A stretch of DNA of 26,155 nt from a virus. The DNA lies in the IMG/VR virus record IMGVR_UViG_3300037587_000095, positions 1-26,155 of that record, one strand, 5' to 3'. How positions within the stretch are numbered: the first letter of the stretch is position 1; every line of letters begins with the position of its first letter. This document shows positions 9,049 to 12,599 of the stretch, piece by piece. The translations under genes were made by a program, and so were the position numbers. The notes below the pieces were generated by a model. It ran no database searches and was not told where the DNA came from. It worked only from the letters and a program-made list of their open reading frames with translations.

Positions 9049-9246
9049 GATAAAATTGAATATGACAGCCAGCAGCAGGGGTCGACAATTAAGGTAGGAA
9101 TGGTCTACTTTGACGCCAGAGGAGTAAGGCTAAGTAAGCCATATCTAGGGGTGAAAATTGATGATTCAGACTGGAATGAAGTAAAGCACATCAACGAAAT
9201 GGCCCTCGAATTTGCCGAACGCAAGCTATCAAAGGGGGTTAAATAA
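9043..9246 (+). CDS. hypothetical protein, 67 residues
   Basis: It has the same AGGAGG-CTGA-ATGATG start cassette as the gene before it. The product (MMDKIEYDSQQQGSTIKVGM...) is a small mixed alpha/beta protein ending in a charged helix (MALEFAERKLSKGVK). The stop overlaps the co-chaperonin start by one base. No function is assigned. Confidence 0.6.
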   Translation: MMDKIEYDSQQQGSTIKVGMVYFDARGVRLSKPYLGVKIDDSDWNEVKHINEMALEFAERKLSKGVK

Positions 9247-9626
9247 TGAATCAACCACCAGTACTACCACTCGGTTATAACGTCCTGGTTGAAATCCTGC
9301 CCGTTCAAGTTAAATCTGACAGCGGCATCATCCTCACATCTCACGATGAAGAAAAGCGAGAGCGCAAGGGCCGCGACTTAGCCCGCATCATTGCGTTTGG
9401 TCCTACCTCATTCATGGGCTATGCAGGTTGCGAGACGCCTGCTGATTGGGGCGTTGATATAGGTGATATCGTGGAGTTGTCTACGCGGTATGATGGCAAG
9501 TTTACCCGCGCCGGGGAATATGGGAAAGAGTTTGAAAACTACCGCTATGTAAACGACCAAGACATTATGGGCTTGGCTAACGGTGACTTTCTAACCATGC
9601 TGCAGAAGCAGCTGGAGGATAAGTAA
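9246..9626 (+). CDS. GroES-like co-chaperonin
   Basis: The 126-residue protein has the GroES layout. An N-terminal strand PLGYNVLVEILPV is followed by a mobile-loop equivalent SDSGIILTSHDEEKR, whose Ile-Ile-Leu (28-30) corresponds to the Ile-Val-Leu that GroES inserts into GroEL. Then come a GRDLARIIAFGP strand, VDIGDIVELSTRYDGKF (GroES 'VGDIVIF'), and a closing DQDIMGL. An insertion around residues 55-70 (SFMGYAGCETPADWG) lengthens it compared with host GroES. By analogy with T4 gp31, it probably replaces host GroES to fold the coat protein. Its place directly before scaffold and coat supports this. Confidence 0.82.
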   Translation: MNQPPVLPLGYNVLVEILPVQVKSDSGIILTSHDEEKRERKGRDLARIIAFGPTSFMGYAGCETPADWGVDIGDIVELSTRYDGKFTRAGEYGKEFENYRYVNDQDIMGLANGDFLTMLQKQLEDK

Positions 9627-10861: not shown

Positions 10862-10885
10862 CGAATAGTGTTTTATATCAGTTTA

Positions 10886-10894
10886 TGCTATAGA
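10886..10894 (+). promoter_or_regulatory. extended -10 promoter for the capsid-leader region
   Basis: TGCTATAGA (TG-n-TATAGA) is a good extended -10 element, 25 bases after the previous stop. The -35 region is poor (TAGTGT at 17 bp spacing). Predicted transcription would begin near 10901, only about five bases before the first arm of the RNA fold at 10906. It resembles the extended -10 at 661-669. Confidence 0.5.
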
Positions 10895-11002
10895 ATACCC
10901 ACATAGGGACTCACGCCCGAAGAAAAGTCATGTTCGTCGATGACAGGCGCACCCGGAGTCCCGATAGTCAATTAGTGGTTGGAATGTAGAAGCATACAGC
11001 CC

Positions 11003-11040
11003 CTAATCAATTAGCCAGGTTAGAAGACCGGATTGATTAG
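11003..11040 (+). promoter_or_regulatory. long stem-loop, alternative to an upstream hairpin
   Basis: CTAATCAAT (11003-11011) pairs perfectly with ATTGATTAG (11032-11040). Inside, CC/GG and GGT/ACC extend the stem to a TAGAAG loop. The same CTAAT (11003-11007) can instead pair with ATTAG at 10971-10975, with GG/CC and TGTA/TACA stacking inside. The two hairpins exclude each other, which is a hallmark of a conformational switch. Function is inferred. Confidence 0.5.
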
Positions 11041-11050
11041 TTAAACGTTT

Positions 11051-11070
11051 GCCCTTTTGGGCTTATTTTT
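11051..11070 (+). terminator. terminator-like hairpin before the decoration gene
   Basis: GCCC (11051-11054), a TTTT loop and GGGC (11059-11062) are followed by TTATTTTT (11063-11070). The stem has only four G-C pairs, so termination is probably partial. It ends 25 bases before the ATG at 11096 and could limit or gate expression of the capsid genes, or end the small RNA. Confidence 0.55.
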
Positions 11071-11095
11071 GATTACTCAATTTGAGGATTCTATT

Positions 11096-11665
11096 ATGGC
11101 TGGCGGATTTCGTCCCATTCAGGATCTATCCGGGCAAGGTTATACGGGTAAGGTCCAAACATTCGCGGTTGACGCGACCCATGCAACTCTGTTGTCAGTA
11201 GGTGATCTAGTCGTTGAGACTGGTAACCTGGAAGCTGCAACAGGTCTTTCCGAAGTCGATGCAATCACTGCTGGTACTGGTAATCTGATTACCGGTGTCA
11301 TCGTCGCAATCGATACAAACATCTCTGACCTAGAGCAAAAAGGTCTGCCTGCTTCCACAGGTAGCACCATTAAAGTGGCTGTCGACCCCGATATGCTGCT
11401 AGAAGCTGAAACCCTTGGCGGTACTTTTGCACTGACTGATGTAGGCGGTAACCTGCCTGTGACCGTCACTGCTGCAACCGCTTCTGGTAACTTGGTCAAT
11501 TCCAATATGGTCGTTAATACAACCGGTAACGCTTCCAGTTCTACTGAGCAGGTCCGCGTGGTTGGTGTTAAAGACTCAGGGGATATCACCTTCCCTGCTC
11601 CCGTAGGTACGACTCTTATTGTTCGTATCAATGAATCCACTGTTAACGGCGCTGTAGGCGTATAA
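11096..11665 (+). CDS. putative capsid decoration/head-stabilising protein, 189 residues
   Basis: The ATG at 11096 has TTTGAGGATT (11081-11090) upstream, with GAGG 8 bases before the ATG; an in-frame TTG further upstream lies in the terminator hairpin and is rejected. The sequence is Gly/Thr/Val-rich with repeated beta-type segments and no cysteines or membrane segments (MAGGFRPIQDLSGQGYTGKV, later SGDITFPAPVGTTLIVRINE). Small beta proteins directly before the major capsid gene are often decoration proteins that cement the shell. The assignment rests on position, composition and size, and no specific family is recognised. Confidence 0.65.
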   Translation: MAGGFRPIQDLSGQGYTGKVQTFAVDATHATLLSVGDLVVETGNLEAATGLSEVDAITAGTGNLITGVIVAIDTNISDLEQKGLPASTGSTIKVAVDPDMLLEAETLGGTFALTDVGGNLPVTVTAATASGNLVNSNMVVNTTGNASSSTEQVRVVGVKDSGDITFPAPVGTTLIVRINESTVNGAVGV

Positions 11666-11675
11666 GGAGCAGATC

Positions 11676-12599
11676 ATGGCTGGTGTAATCACAACTGGTA
11701 ATATCTCGCGCCTTTTAGTCGAAGGCGTCAAAAATGTATTCGGGCAGGAATACGATTCGCATCAAACTCAGCGAACCATGCTGTTTGATACAGAAACCTC
11801 CAGCAAATCATTCGAGCAGGATCAACAGTTCGAAGGCTTCGGCCTAGCCCCTGTTAAGCAGGAAGGCGCGGGCGTTGCTTATGATTCGCAACAAGAGGGT
11901 TTCTCTCCTAAGTTCCCCAACTTGACATATGCCAAAGGCTTTATTGTCACGCGGGAAGCGATGGAAGATAACCTTTATAACCTGTTTAATCGACGGGCTC
12001 GGGCGTTGGCTTTCTCAATGGTTCAAACTCAAGAAGTGGTTGCGGCTAACGTTTATAACCGAGGCTTTAACTCTTCGTTCCTGATGACCGGTGGAGATGG
12101 GGTGGAGTTGTTTAGCTTGCTTCACGTCAACGGCCCATCTGATAGCACAACCTTCCAGAACGAGCTGACAGTGCCAGCGGCGTTCAGTGAAACCTCTCTT
12201 GAGGATCTGCTGATTGTCATCAACGAGGCTACCGACCCTCGCGGTCTGCGTATCGCTCTACGGGGTGAGCGTCTGATCGTTCCGCCTAAGTTGAGCTTTG
12301 ACGCTGAGCGGGTGTTGAATTCGGTTCTGCAGAACGATACCGGCGATAACGCAATCAACGCGCTGCGGTCAACAGGGATGCTGCCAGCTGGTCACATGGT
12401 TAATAACTATCTGACCTCTGACTCTGCCTGGTTCGTCAAGACCAATGCCCCTGACGGCATGAAACACATGCAGCGTCAGACGGTGCGGTTTGAGGAAGAT
12501 AACGACTTTGGTACTTCCAATGCTCGTTTCAAGGCTGACTTGCGCGAGGCTTACGGGTGGAGTGATCCACGCGGCGCTTACGCTTCGGCTGGCGTTTAA
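11676..12599 (+). CDS. major capsid (coat) protein
   Basis: The 307-residue product has features of an HK97-fold coat protein: a flexible N-terminal arm (SRLLVEGVKNVFGQEYDSHQ), an E-loop-like Phe/Gly/Gln-rich region (FEQDQQFEGFGLAPVKQEGA), the long spine-helix region around LYNLFNRRARALAFSM, and a C-terminal strand ending ADLREAYGWSDPRGAYAS, a common ending in coat proteins of this type. AAGGAG overlaps the previous stop and gives a strong ribosome site. It is smaller than P22 coat (430 residues, from memory) and lacks an obvious inserted domain, so the head module is not simply P22-like. It follows scaffold and decoration genes. Confidence 0.88.
   Translation: MAGVITTGNISRLLVEGVKNVFGQEYDSHQTQRTMLFDTETSSKSFEQDQQFEGFGLAPVKQEGAGVAYDSQQEGFSPKFPNLTYAKGFIVTREAMEDNLYNLFNRRARALAFSMVQTQEVVAANVYNRGFNSSFLMTGGDGVELFSLLHVNGPSDSTTFQNELTVPAAFSETSLEDLLIVINEATDPRGLRIALRGERLIVPPKLSFDAERVLNSVLQNDTGDNAINALRSTGMLPAGHMVNNYLTSDSAWFVKTNAPDGMKHMQRQTVRFEEDNDFGTSNARFKADLREAYGWSDPRGAYASAGV

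Follow-up and report, generated by a model that had tools for sequence, protein, structure and literature searches.

AbiF toxins form a family that has been proposed as the ancestor of Cas13. The antitoxin of AbiF is the abiF RNA, which in C. difficile acts both in cis and in trans, the locus of that bacterium's RNA (RCd22) showing the order promoter, RNA, terminator, gene (PMC12373285). An abiF RNA has already been reported from cyanophage S-CREM1 (PMC9964418), and RNA mimicry of a type III antitoxin has a precedent in the pseudo-ToxI of phage PhiTE (PMC3475682). Here we explore the 234-nt gap at 10862-11095 in the structural gene cluster of a 26-kb virus record (IMGVR_UViG_3300037587_000095; the whole stretch analysed, 26,155 nt, is hereafter the window), where a preliminary description had placed a structured RNA with its own promoter and terminator. 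According to the ORF list it is, as that description held, the longest gap in the cluster. The features of the gap named below and the two genes that follow it lie on the + strand. The gap is followed by the first gene of the transcript (11096-11665), which encodes a 189-aa putative decoration protein without a family match, and by the gene for the major capsid protein (11676-12599; PF25209 and phrog_371). The head genes of the window include one for a head-closure protein, kin to the P22-type phage stabilisation proteins; a GroES-like co-chaperonin gene lies within the head gene cluster at 9246-9626 (phrog_3188, E 5.5e-9). A search of genome contigs for the decoration gene gave no match.

About 35 distinct related leaders were collected by searching with the downstream 189-aa protein and with the upstream protein. 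These split into clade 1, which comprises the window and the leaders near to it, and clade 2. The extended -10 promoter element TGCTATAGA is located exactly where it had been noticed, at 10886-10894, with a predicted transcription start near 10901. Nearly every clade 1 leader has TGnTATAGA there, and TGG-TAAAGT-like sites occur at the equivalent place in clade 2 or more distant ones. A T7- or SP6-like promoter was considered and dismissed, since TATAGA-type sites are not repeated at other gene starts. The unit as a whole folds into a more stable structure than its shuffles (z -3.09, 2/200). Scanning the window against Rfam, at the gathering threshold and at E<=10, yielded chance matches only (TarA, RybB). 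The search of the window for tRNA/tmRNA returned none; the hammerhead core CUGAUGA...GAAA is not in the window, which has no Rfam hammerhead match either, and only the leaders L092 and L297 have one.

The best conserved segment of the gap, at 10974-11046, was overlooked in the preliminary description. This core consists of two adjacent hairpins. Hairpin A (10977-11001) carries the loop UAGAAG at 10987-10992, with the consensus UAGANG in the alignment of distinct sequences, and hairpin B (11003-11040) is formed by CTAATCAAT at 11003-11011 and ATTGATTAG at 11032-11040, with an inner stem and a loop at 11021-11026; its end reads GATTGATTAG in clade 1 and GATTGATTTG in clade 2. A covariance model, R1, was built from window positions 10974-11046 and 15 relatives. 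It identifies the core as a single copy directly before the same gene in about 34 relatives, the most diverged ones excepted, and no core among 61 distant capsid-gene relatives. A further match to the core pattern, in L129, lies inside a coding frame and was dropped. With a plain MAFFT alignment none of 500 shuffles covaried as well as the core. In an alignment of 29 distinct sequences, which was fitted to the core structure so that its counts lean towards that structure, 86% of cells pair, both sides change in 18 of the 23 pairs, double-changed cells number 100 (31 in shuffles), and covariation scores 0.410, compared with 0.145 for shuffles (0/500) and no more than 0.076 with the strands slid; the MAFFT alignment, not fitted in this way, agrees on the covariation of the core. 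Unpaired letters are kept as well, namely AG(T/C)G ahead of hairpin A, its UAGANG loop and the C's separating the two hairpins, and the stretch 10970-11048 folds better than all its shuffles (z -3.08, 0/200). No Rfam family matches the core. Judged by this conservation and covariation, it is a real, conserved and previously undescribed structured RNA. The preliminary description deserves credit for an unusual find, and its structured RNA ahead of the capsid genes stands, but the hairpin P1-P3 on which it based the claim is the variable part; the conserved core lies downstream of it.

A second helix, competing with hairpin B, covaries in one of the clades, which makes the core look like a translational switch with two states. 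The ribosome-binding region ahead of the next gene (11077-11093, with GAGG at 11084-11087) is complementary to hairpin B in its loop and 3' strand, and duplex and pairing analysis predicts that the segment at 11021-11036 can pair with this region instead and mask it in the alternative fold. Two paired stretches make up this helix in the window, 11029-11036 with 11077-11084 and 11021-11024 with 11090-11093. At -13.5 kcal/mol this duplex is the top one among 156 leader segments, shuffled partners giving a mean of about -5 to -6, and in 24 of 31 leaders the competing segment is among the five best, scores that have to be read with the caveat that A-rich and U-rich leaders form pairs easily. In clade 2 the native partners beat all partner permutations (0/5000 reached the native mean) and the pairs of the competing helix covary (0/500 shuffles, with lower values for slid controls), where it should be kept in mind that kinship can inflate shuffle tests, related sequences sometimes exceeding shuffles without any structure. 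For clade 1, to which the window belongs, the competing helix is well formed and almost invariant, so that it shows no covariation and the clade is uninformative on this point; native partners there are only slightly better than permuted ones (267/5000). The competing helix is weak in L093-L095. Since hairpin B and the competing helix exclude each other, the layout is the usual one of a two-state switch: two mutually exclusive helices, one of which would mask the ribosome site, stem B covarying throughout the core alignment and its competitor in clade 2. We regard the evidence for the competing helix, drawn from such alignments, as good but not final.

Downstream of the core lies hairpin 3 (11051-11070), a GCCC/GGGC stem followed by a U-rich stretch, which is predicted to cap the competing helix. 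The components GCCCTTTTGGGC and TTATTTTT of the terminator-like hairpin that had been proposed here are indeed present. The region 11040-11075 folds better than any of 200 shuffles (z -4.14); a simple terminator scan did not report the hairpin at 11051-11070. Hairpin 3 is conserved, and a U-run follows it directly in clade 1 only, being displaced in clade 2. From its sequence, hairpin 3 is a plausible terminator in clade 1 only; termination in clade 2 is doubtful because the U-run is displaced. This bears on the two options that had been offered for the unit, a free small RNA of about 170 nt or a 5' leader. A trans-acting small RNA ended by hairpin 3 would agree with the promoter-like element, the conserved fold and the clade 1 hairpin with its U-run, as well as with the comparable order of promoter, RNA, terminator and gene at C. 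difficile RCd22 (PMC12373285), but it is quite unlikely in view of the clade 2 arrangement and of a core that always lies directly before the same gene and pairs with its ribosome site. We favour the leader because the core is fixed in this position and because the competing helix includes the ribosome site of that very gene; part of the clade 1 transcripts may nevertheless end as a small RNA. The core can also be likened to a put RNA, given its two adjacent hairpins with conserved loops, situated between a promoter and a terminator-like hairpin, in which case it would act as an antiterminator for read-through of hairpin 3 and later terminators. We hold this very improbable, as the conserved 3' strand of hairpin B is better explained by the competing helix with the ribosome site.

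Comparison of the leaders shows a conserved and covarying core, a competing helix that covaries in one clade, a promoter-like element and an exchange of what lies between promoter and core. With moderate confidence, we interpret the gap as the 5' leader of the capsid transcript, with the core as a cis-acting two-state translational switch that is preceded by an exchangeable slot. The transcript would probably start near 10901, at the extended -10 promoter. When hairpin B is formed, the decoration-like gene would have a free ribosome-binding site, and the way into the capsid genes would be open as well; when the hairpin opens, its 3' strand would pair with the ribosome site, which would then be masked by the helix capped by hairpin 3. 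The balance between the two states, which would regulate translation, might be triggered through hairpin A, its UAGANG loop perhaps being a protein or ligand site, or be set by the order of folding during transcription. The slot would make up the 5' end of this transcript; the RNA elements in it differ from relative to relative.

This slot indeed differs completely among relatives whose flanking genes may be 97% identical (window versus L082). The window allele is the hairpin P1-P3 at 10906-10962, with an asymmetric internal loop A / CACCCG. Its helices are as first described: P1 pairs GGGACTC (10906-10912) with GAGTCCC (10956-10962), P2 CGCC (10914-10917) with GGCG (10946-10949) and P3 GTCAT (10927-10931) with ATGAC (10940-10944). 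On its own P1-P3 of the window is not exceptional (z -1.55, 13/200 shuffles as good); the sister allele of L083 gives z -3.54 (0/200). P1-P3 is common to six leaders only, unrelated sequence replacing it in the others, and compensatory changes, which had been named as what would support P1-P3, are few among these six (3 pairs, 58/500 shuffles as good). L083 and L089 have the window allele, P3 showing a compensatory change from U-A to C-G, and L086, L085 and L088 keep its base with a different tip. Pattern scanning of viral sequences for the window allele returned only leaders of its own group, and BLAST against plasmids chance matches only; the seven matches of a genome-contig pattern scan were rejected, all lying within open frames and having unrelated folds. 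The slot is empty in L084, holds long, nearly perfect hairpins in clade 2 and contains a genuine abiF RNA in L090 (a 43.7-kb record). In L092 and L297 the slot is taken by a common element, about 270 nt long, that contains a type I hammerhead ribozyme with a complete core and a covarying stem I (CCUAAGA/UCUUAGG versus UCUACGC/GCGUAGG); the L092 hammerhead scores below the Rfam cut-off. This element (L092:3640-3870, L297:2630-2870) has a 5' three-way-junction-like part, then the hammerhead and finally a structured 3' part that no Rfam family matches.

Such variation in sequence, with a stem near the 5' end nonetheless frequent, raises the question whether the hairpins merely stabilise the capsid mRNA, from which a high yield is needed, or mark an RNase processing site, their sequence identity being irrelevant. 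We consider this unlikely, since the core keeps unpaired letters and a fixed two-hairpin layout, L084 has no slot hairpin at all and the abiF RNA of L090 retains its loop sequence.

The L090 abiF RNA scores 48 bits (E 1.4e-9 for its genome), above the RF03085 cut-off of 37 bits, and begins about 8-9 nt after the predicted transcription start. The AbiF toxin gene (Abi_2, PF07751) is absent from the window and 12 relatives, L090 included; Abi_2 was detected in a control plasmid that bears abiF RNAs. With this sister allele in the same slot, P1-P3 of the window might tentatively be read as a diverged abiF-type antitoxin mimic, transcribed from the capsid promoter, that would bind and silence an AbiF-like toxin of the host, a reading compatible with the switch as the explanation of the core. 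P1-P3 has the outer layout of abiF, GGGACUC A CGCC ... GGCG CACCCG GAGUCCC, that is an outer stem, a single unpaired A, an inner stem and a six-base 3' bulge starting with CA, which is a likeness of layout and not a family score; CACCC occurs in genuine abiF RNAs too. The L088 allele keeps unpaired abiF letters and has a compensated inner pair, its likeness to abiF being only suggestive (6.1 bits, E 0.19). L151 (below) provides a genuine abiF RNA whose tip is enlarged, and orphan abiF RNAs are common in viral contigs. Against such a mimic, window P1-P3 is matched neither by RF03085 at E<=10 nor by our own abiF model R2, the conserved letters AAGCCUCU...AUGCUCA are lost from it, and a search with one exact pattern found no bacterial relative of the window allele. 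The conserved abiF loop CUCU..AU and AAGC/GCUCA do not occur in P1-P3 of the window, which has CGCCCGAAGAAAA instead, and CUCU is retained in L085 and L088 only. An abiF-like match at 8027 in L089 was discarded as lying within a coding frame.

The abundance of orphan abiF RNAs was surveyed with a scan for the abiF apical pattern, which hit at least about 80 viral contigs among the matches listed. Abi_2 was lacking in 49 of the 50 tested (L168-L246, L147-L149), a count to be read knowing that some sites may be chance matches inside genes and that contigs are fragments; wherever a toxin gene was found it adjoined the RNA. A partial abiF-like stretch in L235 (31.8 bits, below the cut-off) was left out of the count. 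In Roseobacter phage CRP-143 (Autographiviridae) an abiF RNA of 50.8 bits, absent from the annotation, lies after the scaffold gene and directly upstream of the capsid gene (L147:2500-2537), the L182 group has one of 45 bits directly upstream of a capsid gene (PF13252), and the abiF RNAs at L198:8204-8240 and L199:346-382 lie just downstream of capsid genes related to that of the window.

Some further observations were made on these RNAs. Acinetobacter phage Acj61 has an abiF RNA of 58 bits just before a GIY-YIG homing endonuclease gene (L148:1497-1533). The L151 abiF RNA, whose apical hairpin is enlarged, comes from a Phocaeicola plasmid (L151:3023-3082); an AbiF gene there is preceded by a standard abiF RNA and has the enlarged one on its far side. 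In the abiF alignment A7, columns 16 and 20, corresponding to x and y in CUCU-x-A(A/G)C-y-AU, covary (C-G, U-A, A-U), which suggests an extra base pair that is absent from the Rfam structure line. Bacillus phage P59 carries a skipping-rope RNA (RF02924) within its tRNA cluster (L152:1417-1486). A region of lactococcal phage sk1 reportedly protects another phage against AbiF (work cited in PMC12737573); the model found no abiF RNA in sk1.

Orphan abiF RNAs that are common in viral contigs, capsid leaders of unrelated phages included, form a pattern for which we found no report, single phages being known (PMC9964418). A genuine abiF RNA without its toxin, in an exchangeable slot, hints at RNA-based counter-defence against AbiF. 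Unrelated phages could conceivably load antitoxin mimics (abiF, diverged P1-P3) on the strong late capsid mRNA against AbiF-like toxins, the slot being fused here to a capsid-timing switch, an idea we put forward with reserve. It is unusual for capsid genes to have a conserved regulatory RNA of their own, and the present one offers a concrete two-state model; overall, the core most likely switches capsid translation in cis, and the slot before it takes up RNA cargo.

Set beside the described systems, P1-P3 of the window is like the abiF RNA (RF03085; RCd22 in C. difficile, AbiFr of PbAbiF) in its outer layout and its position relative to the promoter, but the family model does not match, the conserved apical letters are lost, a toxin gene is lacking and the downstream gene is a phage head gene. 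The pseudo-ToxI of PhiTE is a phage-borne type III antitoxin RNA copy without a toxin, as the slot RNAs would be in the abiF reading (PMC3475682); it belongs, however, to another RNA and toxin family, and mimicry was demonstrated experimentally for PhiTE whereas it is inferred here. The type I hammerhead (RF00163), absent from the window, is held in the slots of L092 and L297 together with other undescribed folds. The core, finally, differs from known riboswitches in having neither a known aptamer nor an Rfam match and in preceding phage head genes, and resembles translational riboswitches and RNA leader switches that mask the ribosome-binding site in its two mutually exclusive helices, one of which would mask the ribosome site of the next gene.
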